A DNA stretch of 64,000 bases from Methanococcus maripaludis C5 (GTDB taxonomy: Archaea; AGJL01; Methanococci; Methanococcales; Methanococcaceae): the NCBI RefSeq assembly GCF_000016125.1, contig NC_009135.1, forward strand, positions 868,001 to 932,000, read 5' to 3'. Shown piece by piece: positions 34,060 through 56,639 of the stretch (position 1 is the first letter of the stretch; every line of letters begins with the position of its first letter). Both the position numbers and the translations under genes were made by a program. A model generated the notes under the pieces. The model was not told where the DNA came from. It saw only the letters and a list, made by a program, of their open reading frames with translations, and ran no database searches.

Positions 34060-34076
34060 TATAATCATATATAATA
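34060..34076. repeat. attL core repeat
   Basis: TATAATCATATATAATA, identical to 56623-56639. It lies 34 bp upstream of ilvC, in its promoter region, so it may double as the ilvC TATA region on the other strand. The match extends imperfectly to the left (TTTTATAG versus TTTTAAAGT). Confidence 0.7.
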
Positions 34077-34101: not shown

Positions 34102-34716
34102 CACGAATGTATTAATCAATTATACTTAACAATAGAAATCATGATATTTATAAGTTCTTCTTTTAACGATTAAAGAAAGGAAAACGCTTATTTTTTTAGA
34201 CGATATTTAGACGTATAAATGGACGATTTTTAAGATCTATATTAAAAACGAGTAATTCAGTCTTATTCAATTTGCCGAGCTACAAAGTTGTACGGAAAAT
34301 TTACAGTGTAACACCTTGGTAACTATTATTAGCCCTGACGGGCAAGTTGTGAAAGTTGGTTCCACTGCGCCAAAGTAAAAAGTACGCCCTACACCTTGCA
34401 GGTGCAGGGCTACTGACTAGGGTGTGGGGCTTCGCCCAGAGAGTGCTTGGGGCATATGATTTAAGTTTGGATTATAAAAATAGTAAATGGATCTGTTGCT
34501 TTCGGGTCTCTGAACCCTCAGCCTCATCTCAAGATGCAGGATTGATTAATTTTTAGGGTGTTGCATCTCTCCGATTCGGCACGCAACAGGAATTATTTTC
34601 CAGAGGTCATGCCATGGGCTTATATGCCCTTTCGGGTATCTATCGCCCAGGCGATAATGAGTGCTTAGGGCAATTGATTTTATTCCCTTCGGGCTTGGAA
34701 ACTCGTTAAAATATAT

Positions 34717-34783
34717 AATTTTTTACTATATCGGGTTTTGCCCTTTGGACCGCTACGCTCAAAACCTCGTATAGTAAAAAATT
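34717..34783. repeat. Long inverted repeat (24-bp stem)
   Basis: A 14-bp perfect outer stem (AATTTTTTACTATA/TATAGTAAAAAATT) continues inward as TCGGGTTTTG/CAAAACCTCG with one mismatch and G-U pairs, leaving a 19-nt loop. It is the strongest structure in the window and lies inside the proposed RNA. Confidence 0.8.
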
Positions 34784-34872
34784 CAAAACTACTGAACAAG
34801 ACCAAAAAGGTCAGACAGATTACTATCCCCAAGGGGTTTAATTTGCATATATGATTTTATTCCCTCCGGGTT

Positions 34873-34890
34873 TTACTCGATATCGAGTAA
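34873..34890. repeat. 18-bp perfect palindrome
   Basis: TTACTCGATATCGAGTAA is self-complementary. It could be a hairpin of the RNA or a protein-binding site. Confidence 0.6.
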
Positions 34891-35106
34891 TGCTTCAGAA
34901 AAAACTACTTTTCTGCTGCATTCAAAATATATTTTTATTTTTTTAATTTGTTTTTTCATGCTGCAGACAGTTCATATATTTTTTTCTTATAATAAATTAA
35001 AAATTCCAGGAACAGCCCCTAAAGAAAAAATTTAATCTTTGGAAAATTCTTTAAATTCAATTTAAACGATAAATAAAAGTTTTTCTTATAAGAAAATGTA
35101 AAAAAA

Positions 35107-43670: not shown

Positions 43671-45794
43671 TTACAAAATTAAAGTCTGCTGCCCTTTTTT
43701 CCGCTCCAAAACATTCAAATCATAGGACACTTTTAAGGTTTTGAGAACTCTTACAGCGGTTTTATTGCCTAATTGGGCAACTACTTGATAAGGATTCTTT
43801 TTTATGTCTTCTCTCGTTTTAATTCCAACATCATAGAGCTTTCTTGCTTTTACCCGACCTATTCCACGGATTTTTAAGAGTTCAACAAGTTCTTCAGAAG
43901 CCCCATATTTTAACCGGACTTCGATATTTGAAAACTCGTTCCAGTAGTCTTTCAGGTTTTCCGAGATTCTGAGAAGCTCTTTTGCCGAATAAATCATCCA
44001 GTTCATTTGCTCTAATTTGTATCGTAAAATTCCGGGTTCTACTGCAAAGTTTTCGTGTATTTCTTCGTCTGTACTTTCATTAATCCAAGCTTTAAACAGT
44101 CCTGAGTAAAAGAAATCATCGACAAGGTCATCTACTGTATCATATCCTAAAGATTCAAGCTCGTTTCTTAATTCTGAATTATCTTCAGGAGTTCGGAGTT
44201 TTGGTTTCATTTCGTGAGTTCCCGAAAGAGTTAATAAGATGTGATCTTCAAAAGAATAGTTTTCAAGTCCTTTTAAGCCGTCTAATATGTGAATCGCAGA
44301 TGAAGGCGAAATATAAAGCTCGGATACTCTCAAACCTAAAGCAGTAACTTCAAGGATTTCATTTTCAGGTCTTACAAGTTTTGAATTTTTGAAATCAAAC
44401 AGGATTTCTTCAACGGTTCTCTTTATTTTCCCGAAATCATCATATTGGTAGGCATAAAACGTATTTTTTAAGAATTTGTAAAGTTCTGTCTTATTTCGGG
44501 TAATATCCGAAGCAATTAAACCTAAAATATGCTTTTCTAAGCTCTTGTAATTGGCAATTCCTGAATAGATGTGTTCAGGGTCTCCATTTAAAAGATTCAA
44601 AGCTTCCATAACATCGGCTTTTTTCTTCAGAACAACTATTCCTTCACCATAAGGGTCAAGTCCGGGTCTTCCTGCTCTACCAATGCACTGGTGAATTTCC
44701 ATAACAGGTATTAATTTCATTCCGTTATCTGAAAATCTCTTTACATCTCGAATTATTGCACGTCTACAAGGCATATTCAGACCTGCTGAGAGTGTTGGAG
44801 TACAGCAAATAACTTTTATTATTCGATTTCTGTAAGCTGATTCAACGATTTTTCTCTGTTGTGTAGTTAATCCTGCATGGTGAAAGGCTATTCCTTTTTT
44901 TACACAGTCTGCAAGAGTTTTAACGGTTTTACCCTCTGAATCTGAGCTTAAAAGTTCTTCAGAAACTTCAATTAATTTCTCAACTTCTAAGGGGTGTAAG
45001 TATTCCCTTAAATCGTGCTTTTTAGCTTCACCAACTGCGTTTCTTTTGGAACTGCAAAAGATTAAACAGGAGCCGTCTTCATTTACTGTATCGATAACTA
45101 AATTTTCTAAAGGATTTTTCTTATGCCTTTTAACGTCCTTTTCTTTCTTATCAGTATATTCAATTGTATTTTCAAAGAAAGTCGCTTTTCTAAGCTCAAT
45201 AGGTCTCCAAGAGTCAATAACTAATTTAGCATTTAACCAGTCTGCGAGTTCTCCAGGGTTCCCGACAGTTGCCGAGAGTCCTATTATCTGCAATTCTAAA
45301 GATTTTAAAATCGTTAAAACCACTTCTAAAGTAGCTCCCCTGTCTCCATCCCCGATTAAATGAATTTCATCTATTACCACACATGAAACGTCTTCAAGCC
45401 AGTCAATTTTATGTCTGATTAATGAATCGAGCTTTTCTGAAGTTGTTATGATAAGATTATTACTTGAAAGGTCTTCTTTTGAATCAAAATCCCCGATTGA
45501 AATACCGATTTTTAAACCGTATTTCTCGTATTTTTCCTTGAATTCTTCGTATTTCTCAGTAGCTAAAGCTTTTAGCGGAACTATGAATATTGCTTTCTTG
45601 TTAGTGGGTTTCTTATTTTCATCTAAAAGATGATTTATAAAAGCCATTTCACCGATTAAGGTTTTTCCGCTTGCCGTTGGAATACATACAAGGAAATTTT
45701 TATTTTTCTCTAAAAGTCCGTTATCTAAGACTTTCTCTTGGGGCGGTCTTAAGGTCTTGATTCCAAAATCTTTTAAAACTTCGTGAACGCTCAT
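43671..45794 (-). CDS. Hel308/Ski2-like superfamily 2 DNA helicase
   Basis: A 707-aa helicase. Motif I PTASGKT (39-45), DEIH box (142-145), GLSATVGNPGELADWL, FHHAGLTTQQRKIVE, TPTLSAGLNMP and QCIGRAGRPGLD are all present. The C-terminus has the ratchet region and a helix-hairpin-helix (ELLKIRGIGRVKARKLYDVG). It is close to archaeal Hel308, which unwinds forks 3'-5'. Here it probably serves element replication. ATG overlaps the upstream stop (ATGA). Confidence 0.88.
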   Translation of the reverse strand: MSVHEVLKDFGIKTLRPPQEKVLDNGLLEKNKNFLVCIPTASGKTLIGEMAFINHLLDENKKPTNKKAIFIVPLKALATEKYEEFKEKYEKYGLKIGISIGDFDSKEDLSSNNLIITTSEKLDSLIRHKIDWLEDVSCVVIDEIHLIGDGDRGATLEVVLTILKSLELQIIGLSATVGNPGELADWLNAKLVIDSWRPIELRKATFFENTIEYTDKKEKDVKRHKKNPLENLVIDTVNEDGSCLIFCSSKRNAVGEAKKHDLREYLHPLEVEKLIEVSEELLSSDSEGKTVKTLADCVKKGIAFHHAGLTTQQRKIVESAYRNRIIKVICCTPTLSAGLNMPCRRAIIRDVKRFSDNGMKLIPVMEIHQCIGRAGRPGLDPYGEGIVVLKKKADVMEALNLLNGDPEHIYSGIANYKSLEKHILGLIASDITRNKTELYKFLKNTFYAYQYDDFGKIKRTVEEILFDFKNSKLVRPENEILEVTALGLRVSELYISPSSAIHILDGLKGLENYSFEDHILLTLSGTHEMKPKLRTPEDNSELRNELESLGYDTVDDLVDDFFYSGLFKAWINESTDEEIHENFAVEPGILRYKLEQMNWMIYSAKELLRISENLKDYWNEFSNIEVRLKYGASEELVELLKIRGIGRVKARKLYDVGIKTREDIKKNPYQVVAQLGNKTAVRVLKTLKVSYDLNVLERKKGQQTLIL

Positions 45795-47194
45795 TTTTTC
45801 ACTTCATTGTCATCAAGCTTTCTAAATGAAATAACCGTTTCATATGCACTGTATTTCCAGTCTTTATCACTCATTTCATAGAGCTTATCTTCATAGTCTT
45901 TCTGAGCTTCCCTGCTTCCAATTTCAAACCGAGAATAATCATCTATTTTTCCACAGTTTTCACAAACATGGCAGTACTTCTCAGGGTCATATCGCATTAA
46001 AAAACCACATTCACAACGGTAAAATCCCTGTAATGAATGTTTTAATCTTAATACCGAGTCTTTCCACCGCCAAAGACCTTTTTTACCACCAAGTTCTTTT
46101 TCAAGTGGGGCAATTAAACCACGATATTTAAGACGTTCTCTAAGACCCCCAGTTGCAAAATCAAACGACAGTACAAAAGCCCGACCAAAAAGGATAGTTT
46201 TTACCAAATTCAAAGGTAAATGCCACCATTCAGCATAATCTTGAACGATATCCTCACCAGTAATTTGTATGGGTCTTAATGAATCAAAATCAAAACCAAA
46301 GAAGGCATAACAATGCTTTATATTCTTAACAATACTGTAATACATTGTTTCAGGACTTCCAACAATCCACTGTCTCGAAGCTTCTCCGTTCCACGTGAAC
46401 TCGTGCCTATTGATCCCCGCTCCTTTTTGATACCTCTTAAACTGAACTTTTATTGATTTTCTTTCAGGAGTGTAATATTCCGTATTTGTCAAATTTCCGA
46501 ATGCTTTCATGTAATTTTGCTTCCTTTCATCAGTAATATGTTGAAACTGAAGCGATTCACAATTTAACCATTCAACGTCAATTTCTGCACTTTGAATTGA
46601 AACCTCAATTAAAGAATAAATATCTTCATTTGAATTATTCTCTCGTGCAATCTTTTCAATATCAATTCCAAAGATTTTTTTAAGGTAATAATCGTATTCG
46701 TACTTATACTGTTCAATTCTGTCGTGAAGGAGTTCTGTAAATTCCCTTAATAAACTTCCTTCTGAATCTTCTACAACCTCGATAGGAAGAACGTTATTGT
46801 CGTGATAAGAATCTTCATAAGGGTCTATATTGTGTTCTTTCATGTAGAGTCGGTTCACATTGAAGTAACCCCTTGCAACGTGTGGTTGCCTGAAAGATAT
46901 CGCAATTGAAGCAATTTCTTCACCATCAAAGTCTTCTTCAAGAGGAAATTTACTCCATGTTTCGACAGGCGTTCTGAAGTGATAATCTCCGGTTTTTCTT
47001 CCGTGTCTTTTTTCAGAAATCAAAGTTACAAGTCGAGGAAAGTCTTCAGACCATTTATTAAATGCAGTCTTGTCAAACCCATTTCCCAACGTTTTACGAA
47101 GTAAAGGCACGTGAATCGTAACATAAACCCTATCGATTACGATTCTCCGTTGATAAAACTCCTCATAGCCCGAGCGATATCTTACCTCATTCAA
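45791..47194 (-). CDS. Possible replication initiator with Cys-rich zinc ribbon (467 aa)
   Basis: Unrecognised large protein. The middle contains an alternating strand pattern ending KVQFKRYQKGAGINRHEFTW, reminiscent of the K-x-Y..R-x-E core of replication initiators of the filamentous-phage gpII type. A zinc ribbon YRCECGFLMRY / CHVCENCGK lies near residues 393-415. Start is TTG at 47194. Coupling to the helicase supports a replication role; the Rep idea is tentative. Confidence 0.5.
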   Translation of the reverse strand: MNEVRYRSGYEEFYQRRIVIDRVYVTIHVPLLRKTLGNGFDKTAFNKWSEDFPRLVTLISEKRHGRKTGDYHFRTPVETWSKFPLEEDFDGEEIASIAISFRQPHVARGYFNVNRLYMKEHNIDPYEDSYHDNNVLPIEVVEDSEGSLLREFTELLHDRIEQYKYEYDYYLKKIFGIDIEKIARENNSNEDIYSLIEVSIQSAEIDVEWLNCESLQFQHITDERKQNYMKAFGNLTNTEYYTPERKSIKVQFKRYQKGAGINRHEFTWNGEASRQWIVGSPETMYYSIVKNIKHCYAFFGFDFDSLRPIQITGEDIVQDYAEWWHLPLNLVKTILFGRAFVLSFDFATGGLRERLKYRGLIAPLEKELGGKKGLWRWKDSVLRLKHSLQGFYRCECGFLMRYDPEKYCHVCENCGKIDDYSRFEIGSREAQKDYEDKLYEMSDKDWKYSAYETVISFRKLDDNEVKK

Positions 47195-49172: not shown

Positions 49173-49712
49173 ATGTTCAAATCTATTAAGTGGGCATCTA
49201 TTGAAAGTTTAGAAGAGCATAAACCTAAAAAATCTGAACAAACGAAGAAAAATAAAAGAATAACTAAAAAAGAAGCTTTTAAAAAAGGAAAAGCTTTTGA
49301 GTTGTATTGTCTGGATATTTTTCCAGAAAACGAGTTTGATTTGCTTGAAATGACGCATAACCCAAATTCTGCAAATGGCAGGTTTGTTGAAAGTGATTTA
49401 AACCCAGATTTAAAATTTAGGGATAAAAAAACAAATACTATTTTTAGTGTTGAATGTAAATACCGGAGTAATTTATTCAAAGGGGCTTTTAAATGGGCCA
49501 AATATAAAGATCAAGCTGATAGATACCGAGAATTTGAACAAGAACATGGAATTCCAGTATATATTGCAATGGGATTGGGCGGAACTCCCGAAGAACCCGA
49601 ACAAATGTTTATAATGCCATTAAAAGAAATAAAATATAATTCAGTTTATCCAAGTGCTTTGGAAGATTACGAAATTATTGAATCAGAAGATGTTTTTAAA
49701 ATTTTAAGATAA
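49173..49712 (+). CDS. PD-(D/E)XK nuclease-like protein 1 (179 aa)
   Basis: Core motif D79 ... E94-C-K96 within NPDLKFRDKKTNTIFSVECK, the restriction-endonuclease fold signature, then QADRYREFEQEHGIPVYIAM. The N-terminus is basic. The C-terminal 100 residues are clearly paralogous to 52033-53025 (shared VECK, MGLGG, EIKY and YPS segments). GTAGGGGGTGTAATTTA precedes the ATG. The HEPN-like gene starts 60 bp later, probably in the same transcript. Confidence 0.75.
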   Translation: MFKSIKWASIESLEEHKPKKSEQTKKNKRITKKEAFKKGKAFELYCLDIFPENEFDLLEMTHNPNSANGRFVESDLNPDLKFRDKKTNTIFSVECKYRSNLFKGAFKWAKYKDQADRYREFEQEHGIPVYIAMGLGGTPEEPEQMFIMPLKEIKYNSVYPSALEDYEIIESEDVFKILR

Positions 49713-51745: not shown

Positions 51746-51945
51746 GTATTCTGACAAGACCAATGTAAGAATTACCTTTTTGATTATTACCTTTTAAAGC
51801 TATTTTAAAACAATTAAACTAATTTTAACGTAAGATAATGCTATTTTTTTAATTTAAAGCGTATCCCCCTCATTAAAAATTCAATTAAAATAATTATTCT
51901 TCGATTGAATATTAAACTTCTCTTTTACAATTTAACATTAAATTG

Positions 51946-51974
51946 GAAATTAAACCTTTAAATTTTATATATAA
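51946..51974 (+). promoter_or_regulatory. Shared promoter/operator element, copy 1
   Basis: GAAATTAAACCTTTAAATT followed by a TATA stretch; the 19 bases are identical at 54723. It lies about 60 bp before the start of the nuclease gene at 52033. Confidence 0.65.
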
Positions 51975-52032
51975 TTTTAAACAGATAAATATCCATTTGA
52001 TTTTAACAAACAAGTTTCAAAAGGGGCGGGTT

Positions 52033-53025
52033 ATGATTTTAGAAACTTTATTTATTCTTTTTATCTGGGGATTGATTTCAAATTCAAATAAAAATAAAAA
52101 AGAAGCATTAACCTATTTAGATAGCACACCTTACGCACTATCGATTTTAACGCATATGCACAAGGAATATGGTTATCGGGTAAATGATTCTGTGTCATCT
52201 AAGAAACTTGCAGATGATACGAAAAAGTATTTAGTCGATGTTGAAAACCATCTCGAATATCTTGCTGAAAAAAAGCTAGTTAAAAAAATTAATACGCAGA
52301 GTGAAGTCTGTCCTGTAAAATACGGTATAACGCCACTTGGAAGAACCATAGTTTCTGAAAAGATAAGAAAAGAACGGCAAAAATCTAAAATTCAAAATAA
52401 GGAAAAAATACAGGTAAATAAAAAACAGGTAAAGAAAAATACAGATATTTTTAGTAGAATTGAAGAAACTAAAACAGAAACCGAACTTCCAAAGAAAAAT
52501 CAAAATTTAATTAAAAATAAGTTTGAAAAGGACGTTCCGATAAATTTCTACTCTAAACCTAAAACTGACGAAAATTTAAGTTTTGAAATTGGTGAAGCTT
52601 TTGAAAACTTTGTTGCTGAAGAACTATTTCCAGATCATCATTTTGTACTGACACACATGACCCCGAATTTTGCAGTAAACAGTAAAAGATATTGCGAAAG
52701 TTCATTAAAACCTGATTTGGGATTTAGGGATAAAAAAACAGGTAAGGAATTCTATGTAGAATGTAAATTCAGGGGCAGTTTAACCGAAGATGGCAAATAC
52801 GACTGGACTAAAGATAAAAATCAGGCCAATAGGTATAGAAATATTCAAAAAGATGAAAATAAACAGGTATTTGTTGCAATGGGTCTTGGCGGAATGTCAA
52901 ATAATCCAAGAAACATATTTTTAGTTCCGATCGATGAAATAAAATATCTCGAAATCTATCCAAGCGTTTTAAGAAACTGGGAAGTTTCAAATAAATACGA
53001 CGTATTTAAAATCGTGAACAGTTAA
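52033..53025 (+). CDS. Winged-helix / PD-(D/E)XK nuclease fusion (330 aa)
   Basis: A short hydrophobic N-terminus (ILETLFILFIWGLIS), a winged-helix-like domain (residues 20-110; SSKKLADDTKKYLVDVENHL, GITPLGRTIVSEK), a Lys/Gln-rich linker, and a C-terminal nuclease domain with D228 ... E243-C-K245. The last 110 residues are paralogous to 49173-49712. GGGGCGGGTT precedes the ATG; the upstream in-frame codons from 51943 cover the promoter repeat and are not coding. The N-terminal helix may anchor it to the membrane. Confidence 0.75.
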   Translation: MILETLFILFIWGLISNSNKNKKEALTYLDSTPYALSILTHMHKEYGYRVNDSVSSKKLADDTKKYLVDVENHLEYLAEKKLVKKINTQSEVCPVKYGITPLGRTIVSEKIRKERQKSKIQNKEKIQVNKKQVKKNTDIFSRIEETKTETELPKKNQNLIKNKFEKDVPINFYSKPKTDENLSFEIGEAFENFVAEELFPDHHFVLTHMTPNFAVNSKRYCESSLKPDLGFRDKKTGKEFYVECKFRGSLTEDGKYDWTKDKNQANRYRNIQKDENKQVFVAMGLGGMSNNPRNIFLVPIDEIKYLEIYPSVLRNWEVSNKYDVFKIVNS

Positions 53026-55147: not shown

Positions 55148-56007
55148 TTATTTACCCATAATCCTTAAATATTCTCTTTTTAAACTCTCTTTATTCTTAT
55201 GAAGAAAATCGAAGTTGTTTTAATGTCTTCGTGACCTAAAATGTCTTGAAGTGTTCTTAAATCCATTCCTTTATCCACGCAAGTTGTTGCAAAGGTATGT
55301 CTCAATATATGCGGAGTAATCCGTTTATTAACCTTTTTTCCATAAACGTCATTCAAATAATTGATATAATGCGTTATAGATGACTTCCCGATTGCCTTAC
55401 CACGCCGATTTAAAAACAAATTCGGTGCTTTTGGTTTTAAAATATCCCTTTCTCGAAGCCATCTTTTTAGATTAATTCCCATATCTAAGTCAAAAAACAC
55501 AAATCTATCTTTTCTACCCTTTCCACCACGTATAAAAATTGTTTGCTCGTTAAAATCTACATCATCAAGTAGTATATTCTGAAATTCTGAAACCCTCACC
55601 CCTGTTTTAATAAAAAACATGGTAAAAATATAGAAATTAACATCAATTATACTTCTAAGAAGGTCATCTGACTGTTTTTGAGTCAAATAATCCCTTTCCT
55701 TTTTATCGGGTTTCAGAGTATTTAAAAAACTTCTAACTGGATTGCCCGTAATATATTTATGTTTATTAGCCCATTCATAAAATCTATTTAGAGACCTTAT
55801 ACGGTATATTTTTGTATTTCTCGAAGCTTCATACACCTCAAAAAATTCAATTATGTCTTCTATTGTTAAATTTTCAAATGAAAGACTATCGTCATAGTAA
55901 TTTAGGAAGATTTTCATAGTAGATTTATAATTTACAAGGGTAGTTTCACTCAGACCCGAACAGAATTTCAAATATCTTTCGACAAGCTCTCTCGATTTAT
56001 CATTCAA
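55148..56007 (-). pseudogene. Tyrosine recombinase (XerC-like integrase), frameshifted at the catalytic Tyr codon
   Basis: The readable frame gives 275 aa (down to 55180): an N-terminal SAM-like core-binding domain, then R138 (TGVRVSEF), K163 (GGKGRKDR), H233-x2-R236 (HILRHTFATT) and H259 (LGHEDIKTTSI). Tyr should stand at 268; the frame reads ATT-TTC there and ends FFIRIKRV. Another frame continues LHKNKESLKREYLRIMGK to 55150, a normal XerC-like tail. Loss of one A from TAT (Tyr) accounts for it. Start is TTG after GGTGAGGG. It lies just after the companion gene. Confidence 0.85.
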
Positions 56008-56622: not shown

Positions 56623-56639
56623 TATAATCATATATAATA
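56623..56639. repeat. attR core repeat
   Basis: TATAATCATATATAATA, identical to 34060-34076. It lies 69 bp before the BASS gene. Confidence 0.7.

Follow-up and report, generated by a model that had tools for sequence, protein, structure and literature searches.

Among published replication systems, that of the archaeal temperate element SNJ2 appears to be the closest to the locus described here. As reported for SNJ2, replication requires the Rep protein and a conserved downstream hairpin; changes that break the stem or the loop of this hairpin abolish replication, but a change that preserves its structure does not (PMC13107129). The SNJ2 replication operon is described as arising only upon excision (PMC13107129). 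Single-strand origins are orientation-specific and active only as single-stranded DNA (ssDNA), and those reported for ICEBs1 have stem-loops (PMC4595007). For the pT26-2 family, a survey describes putative origins of replication without a conserved consensus, and in its main text neither "ncRNA" nor "secondary structure" occurs (PMC6972569). The block presented below is not described in the titles or shown abstracts of the literature on methanococcal integrated elements and ncRNA or on archaeal rolling-circle replication.

The DNA analysed, called the window from here on, is the whole 64-kb stretch of Methanococcus maripaludis C5. It corresponds to G000:C1:868001-932000, G000 being a genome of two contigs. 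It carries an integrated element of 22.6 kb between two 17-bp direct repeats, TATAATCATATATAATA, and the ends were determined for this element alone. In genome G001, the host genes ilvC and transporter (named from sequence reading) are adjacent, with a single copy of the 17-bp repeat. Since the flanking host genes adjoin there with only one repeat copy, this locus is considered an empty site. The attL proposed in the initial annotation is thus borne out by the repeat pair and by the single copy in the uninterrupted relative. In the excised circle, attP would have the integrase operon on one side and the block on the other, and in G006 this operon and the block are found in the same divergent order as in the window element.

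The integration site of the element is a 17-bp intergenic sequence, and neither tRNA nor tmRNA genes were found in the 64-kb window. For pT26-2 plasmids of Methanococcales, tRNA-Ser/Leu integration sites have been reported (PMC6972569). The host site occupied by the window element has, in G002, a decayed block piece (L045:3630-3960) that adjoins a long leucine-rich-repeat-like gene, and this piece reads as the trace of an earlier integration. The window element also contains a Ski2-like helicase gene (43671-45794; Pfam DEAD and Helicase_dom4_arc) with 86% identity to a gene of L058, an element found in the same genome. The element proteins encoded at 49173-49712 and 51943-53025 look like paralogues by eye, with common FRDKKTG..VECK(Y/F)R and AMGLGG stretches, and are possibly nuclease-like. 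A protein that resembles this pair reads immediately to the left of the G023 block.

The block, which is located just inside attL, is confirmed as a genuine, evolutionarily conserved folded structure of about 700 bases in a mobile element. It extends from approximately 34179 to 34880 and begins about 80 bp to the left of 34262, the edge set by the initial annotation. As previously noted, the block is enriched in G+C (0.39-0.45 in 300-base windows over 34150-34899, versus 0.20-0.31 immediately outside), contains no believable ORF and folds into many hairpins. Only two of its ORFs reach 50 aa, with lengths of 66 and 50 aa, and the former had no relative when ORFs of at least 60 aa were compared among the elements. 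The z-score of the 706-nt fold is -3.94 for the plus strand and -4.47 for the minus strand, none of 20 shuffles being as stable. The internal repeats were also recovered, AGTGCTT at 34442 and 34660 and TGATTTTATTCCCTYCGGG at 34675-34693 and 34852-34870. With respect to the UUCG-like loops, the letters are present, but the perfect hairpins read as C(UUC)G triloops, which correspond to C(GAA)G on the opposite strand. Rfam at gathering thresholds gave no match anywhere in the 64-kb window. A scan limited to bacterial promoters gave 7 matches versus 5.7 in shuffles, which is no excess. The parts of the block and of the element are collected in Table 1; the conserved AT-rich leader is a possible Rep-binding or promoter segment.

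Table 1. Location of the block parts and related features in the window.
Feature	Position	Strand	Basis or remark
attL core, 17-bp direct repeat	34060..34076	.	repeat comparison; empty site in G001
AT-rich leader, conserved (GGAAAACGCTTATTTTTTTAG...)	34179..34260	.	copy alignment; first 21 bases located
Small hairpin, coding-strand hexaloop TAATAG; candidate nick hairpin	34320..34331	-	covarying stem
Hairpin HA, coding-strand C(GTCA)G loop	34332..34343	-	
Hairpin HB	34386..34410	-	seven different stems in seven compared copies
Hairpin HC, coding-strand C(GAA)G loop	34427..34437	-	
P1/P2/P3 multi-branched domain	34493..34589	-	strong covariation; conserved T-rich apical loop
P4 and P5 hairpins	34623..34656	-	
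Repeated small-hairpin plus TTGATTTTAT motif and hairpin P6, C(GAA)G	34660..34693	-	
Long hairpin	34717..34783	-	present in L020; missing from L016, L017, L019 and L044
Third copy of the TGATTTTATTCCC motif, at the right block edge	34852..34880	.	
Rep-like protein gene	45791..47194	-	relatives at each block-bearing locus
Tyrosine integrase	55180..56007	-	protein family scan
attR core	56623..56639	.	17-bp repeat comparison

Related blocks were located at ten loci of Methanococcus and one neighbouring genus, in a set of 36 genomes from the order; a phylum-wide search gave the same 36. Six copies are full-length: the window, L016, L017 (same genome), L019 (G001), and L020 and L044 (G002). The L021 block (G006) was already found in the first BLAST search, and three divergent blocks were located through the position of the Rep-like gene (G000:C1 at about 746 kb, here G000b; G023, from the other genus; and G003). 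L018 and L045 hold decayed pieces. BLAST with the window block as query gave matches at E <= 0.01 in 5 of the 7 genomes of the genus, the weaker ones being short and some of them unconvincing, and a second copy used as query matched 10 of the 36 genomes of the order. The matches in six sister-family genomes were taken as chance; two were inspected and both looked coding-like by eye. A covariance model of 165 positions, built from the cores of the six copies, recovers those six by construction (E <= 1e-29), and its scan of the 36 genomes gave no convincing further copy. Eight weak matches of this model (E 0.003-0.9) were taken as chance, five having been inspected, three of them at one orthologous place. 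The copies gave no blastn match in phage and plasmid collections. Pattern and protein scans gave no confirmed relative in viral and genome contig collections, from which near records may be missing.

One host site, recognised by the same small gene, can be followed in several genomes: G000 has a fragment there (L018:2653-2783), G002 has the full block with element genes (L044:3150-3720), and at the orthologous site of G001 (L054) nothing was recognised. In two copies an ArdC-like gene (L016:2558-4540, L019:2755-4821) separates the block from a conserved segment; in the window, this segment (34899-35096) comes directly after the block. The L016 gene shows the Pfam families ArdcN, MPTase-PolyVal and methyltransferase, and that of L019 resembles it by eye and by BLAST of the C-terminal part. 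Because of the presence of this gene beside the block in two copies, we considered a group II intron, or a transposon, whose ORF had been lost; this was rejected, as the conserved hairpins are entirely to one side of the ArdC-like gene.

The compensatory changes that the initial annotation had put forward as a check were found among the homologues. The six-copy core is formed by six helices, with 92.1% of the cells paired and 9 pairs changed on both sides. Its covariation score is 0.267 versus 0.110 for shuffled alignments (sd 0.022), a value reached by none of 500 shuffles, and slid alignments score at most 0.076; relatedness of the copies is corrected by the sliding and uncorrected by the shuffles. 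The number of further pair types in the six copies is a weak measure (14 versus 11.4 in shuffles, reached by 32 of 500). RNAalifold on the six copies gave 26 pairs with double changes for the plus strand and 30 for the minus strand. The same annotation had named a protein frame conserved across relatives as the contrary outcome, and among the ORFs of at least 60 aa in the compared blocks, none had a relative when the elements were compared.

With a little better than even confidence, we interpret the block as a cis-acting rolling-circle replication region, composed of a nick hairpin and a single-strand origin, that would act as folded ssDNA of the minus strand after excision. Both parts are proposed on account of the SNJ2 precedent and of the ssDNA-specific and orientation-specific behaviour of single-strand origins. 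The integrase would excise and circularise the element, an excision on which the later steps presumably depend. A Rep-like protein, presumably of rolling-circle type, would nick at or near the hairpin with the TANTAG loop (34320-34331), and the coding strand, which is the minus strand of the window, would be displaced as the leading strand is synthesised. The array of stable hairpins at 34332-34880 would then work as the single-strand origin, at which priming of the complementary strand may start.

The loops of the hairpins argue for this replication region. GNA and GNNA loops are described as forming extraordinarily stable DNA mini-hairpins (PMC4686876), and GNNA and GNAB loops as forming stably in DNA, as an analogue of the RNA GNRA loop (PMC8373063). 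Perfect hairpins with a stem of at least 4 and a loop of 3-4 were counted in nine blocks, L021 being left out. C(GNA)G, C(GNNA)G or C(GNAB)G loops are present in 27 of the 85 hairpins on the coding (minus) strand and in none on the plus strand, this class being derived from the literature but picked after the loops had been seen. In 300 dinucleotide shuffles the class appears 0.43 times on average and 4 times at most; the remaining 63 kb of the window has it in 7 of 892 hairpins, and the small second contig of the source genome shows 0 C(GN..)G hairpins with a stem of at least 4. Closure by C-G on the coding strand is found in 52 of the 85 hairpins, 25 of which have loops outside the stable class. 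In homologous hairpins the loops swap inside the class, HA carrying GTCA, GACA, GTTA or GGCA and HD carrying GTTA, GACA, GCA or GAA. P4 departs from it, with AAA in L017 and L044. On the whole, a large RNA accounts for these loops less well than ssDNA folded at an origin of replication.

The base pairs were examined as 495 cells; these come from 13 helices, selected by hand and each compared in 2 to 10 copies, a count that leaves out P5 and the small hairpins, where by eye there are 2 more G·T on the plus strand (L020 and G000b). Watson-Crick pairs account for 469 cells (94.7%) and 9 are of other types. Read on the plus strand, the rest are 4 G·T and 13 A·C; read on the minus strand, 13 G·T and 4 A·C, wobble thus being 2.6%. 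In a folded plus-strand RNA, G·U would be expected to be frequent and A·C scarce, the reverse of what is seen, and 2.6% of wobble is low for RNA helices. Loop and wobble counts are not independent, because the copies are related. Fold z-scores calculated with RNA and with DNA parameters are negative for both strands, and neither strand is consistently favoured.

The candidate nick hairpin is found beside HA. Its loop reads CTATTA, which on the coding strand is TAATAG, with TACTAG in L017 and TAGTAG in G003, and its stems are TAA/TTA, TTA/TAA, TAT/ATA or TCT/AGA. This TANTAG-loop hairpin with a covarying stem is conserved in 10 copies, as a hexaloop in 9 and as a 5-nt loop in G000b. A strict version of the pattern, which misses the variant letters of L017, G003 and G000b, has 7 exact matches in the 36 genomes, all within blocks, and its reversed control has none.

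The Rep-like gene family is common to the six elements first found and comprises 11 genes in 7 of the 36 genomes (a twelfth entry overlaps one of them). For 10 of the 11 genes a block is located at about 1 to 27 kb, for instance at about 11 kb in the window and about 900 bp upstream of the gene in G003. In 10 of 10 cases the coding strand of the block is the Rep-coding strand, and the plus strand, that of the initial annotation, is opposite to the gene. Single-strand origins are recognised by several stem-loops formed by one of the strands and by a constant orientation towards the replication gene, and both features were found here with respect to the Rep-like gene (27 versus 0 stable loops; 10 of 10 orientations). 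The strict block motif is absent from all 29 genomes without the Rep-like gene. The eleventh gene, in G005, has no block: the left flank of the block of G006, a near relative, is kept (93.75% identity over 160 bases), and at about 55.2 kb of G005:C2 the sequence continues past the point at which G006 carries its block, this point being enclosed by TTGTGCGT repeats. The block has apparently been deleted cleanly between short direct repeats. As the stretch is otherwise close to that of G006, the pair offers a ready-made comparison on replication without the block.

We assign this family to the Rep proteins only weakly. The filamentous-phage G2P family (PF05144) matches 2 of the 11 members at E <= 10, the best E being 0.0018, below the Pfam cut-off (a shorter form of this protein gave 0.0015); the window copy gave no match to it at E <= 0.1. 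HHalign against eight phage gpII proteins gave a probability of 0.1, with 0.0-0.5 for eight control pairs. A plain G2P relative is therefore unsupported, the HHalign result being no better than the controls. The window copy gave no match in a PDB sequence search, and an AlphaFold single-sequence model of the protein was unusable (pLDDT 32). In tblastn with one Rep-like protein, phages gave two matches at E 1 and 9 and plasmids none. By eye, the family shows a winged-helix-like segment and a zinc ribbon.

Of the other explanations, the one that survives best, although we hold it to be rather unlikely, is a large structured ncRNA from the coding (minus) strand, on which the core genes are also read; it would be a trailing RNA or act in trans. 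Such an RNA would agree equally well with the covariation and the low folding energy, RNAalifold prefers the minus strand (-83.0 versus -66.9), and this strand has more G·T cells than the plus strand (13 versus 4). However, wobble remains at only 2.6% of the cells, the GNNA loops show no preference for the GNRA (RNA) type (only 3 of 16), and a terminator-like site of the minus strand falls inside the window block. A transfer or packaging signal, in which ssDNA hairpins would be recognised for export by a relaxase-like protein or by ATPase or secretion-like proteins, seems improbable to us. The block is near a conserved ATPase gene in the window and in L017, and the pT26-2 core is hypothesised to serve DNA or protein transfer (Badel et al., PMC6972569), but no relaxase family appeared among the scanned proteins, which represent part of the elements, and the G003 block is so near the Rep-like gene, about 900 bp upstream. 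Even less probable is a double-stranded cruciform or protein-binding array, such as an integrase, excision or chromatin site: the block adjoins attL in the window and its inverted repeats could extrude, but strand-specific loops and the multi-branched P1-P3 would be unexpected in double-stranded binding sites.

The plus-strand large RNA comparable to GOLLD or ROOL that the initial annotation proposed is hardly tenable, since low folding energy, covariation and the T-rich stretches seen by eye 3' of some copies stand against G·T cells rarer than A·C cells (4 versus 13 of 495), stable DNA loops in 0 of 85 hairpins of that strand versus 27 on the opposite one, no Rfam match in the window and, by eye, no T-tract after the last hairpin of L044. 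What holds of this proposal is a large, conserved, covarying and apparently non-coding block on archaeal elements with no Rfam match in the window; its RNA nature is not supported.

The survey of the pT26-2 family found putative origins and no conserved origin sequence (PMC6972569). If related methanogen elements have a conserved folded origin and share a Rep-like gene, their replication mechanism would become testable, and a route to Methanococcus shuttle vectors would open. A more far-reaching form of this replication region, which we regard as unlikely, is an unrecognised rolling-circle system with a new Rep family and a composite nick hairpin and single-strand origin of hyperstable DNA hairpins, the ssDNA of the 20-kb element being exported by secretion-like core proteins. 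If this were true, such proviruses or plasmids would spread as ssDNA. The wobble asymmetry and the loop class by strand are suggested as a simple computational way to separate structured ssDNA from structured RNA.

GOLLD and ROOL are carried on mobile elements, and the block shares with GOLLD, ROOL and OLE the several hundred structured nucleotides. However, it has no Rfam match and the strand evidence favours DNA. With respect to the pT26-2 family, a protein of the L019 element matches Pfam T26-6p domains and has BLAST relatives in the L055 and L058 elements, but the window element shares only some of those genes. The M13/f1 intergenic region is a non-coding hairpin region of similar type, about 500 nt long and with a nick hairpin; the M13 loop with its closing base is GTTCTTTAATA-G, TAATAG is common to M13 and the present nick-like hairpin, and one Rep-like relative weakly matches the G2P family. 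In contrast, none of the five M13 intergenic hairpins whose stems reach 6 or more has a GNA-type loop, HHalign gave no support for Rep homology, and the present element is of 22.6 kb and has an integrase. The single-strand origins of rolling-circle plasmids and ICEBs1 are also orientation-specific multi-stem-loop DNA in mobile elements (PMC4595007), but they are bacterial and are likened here by description. The SNJ2 Rep-Arvir origin of betapleolipoviruses shares with our locus an archaeal temperate element and the association of a Rep or Rep-like gene with a conserved hairpin (PMC13107129). SNJ2 Rep and the present Rep-like family have no shared Pfam family among those listed. SNJ2 requires the 210 bp that immediately follow rep and contain a single conserved hairpin plus an inverted repeat (PMC13107129), whereas the methanococcal block spans about 430-700 bp, holds many hairpins and is separated from the Rep-like gene by about 1 to 27 kb.
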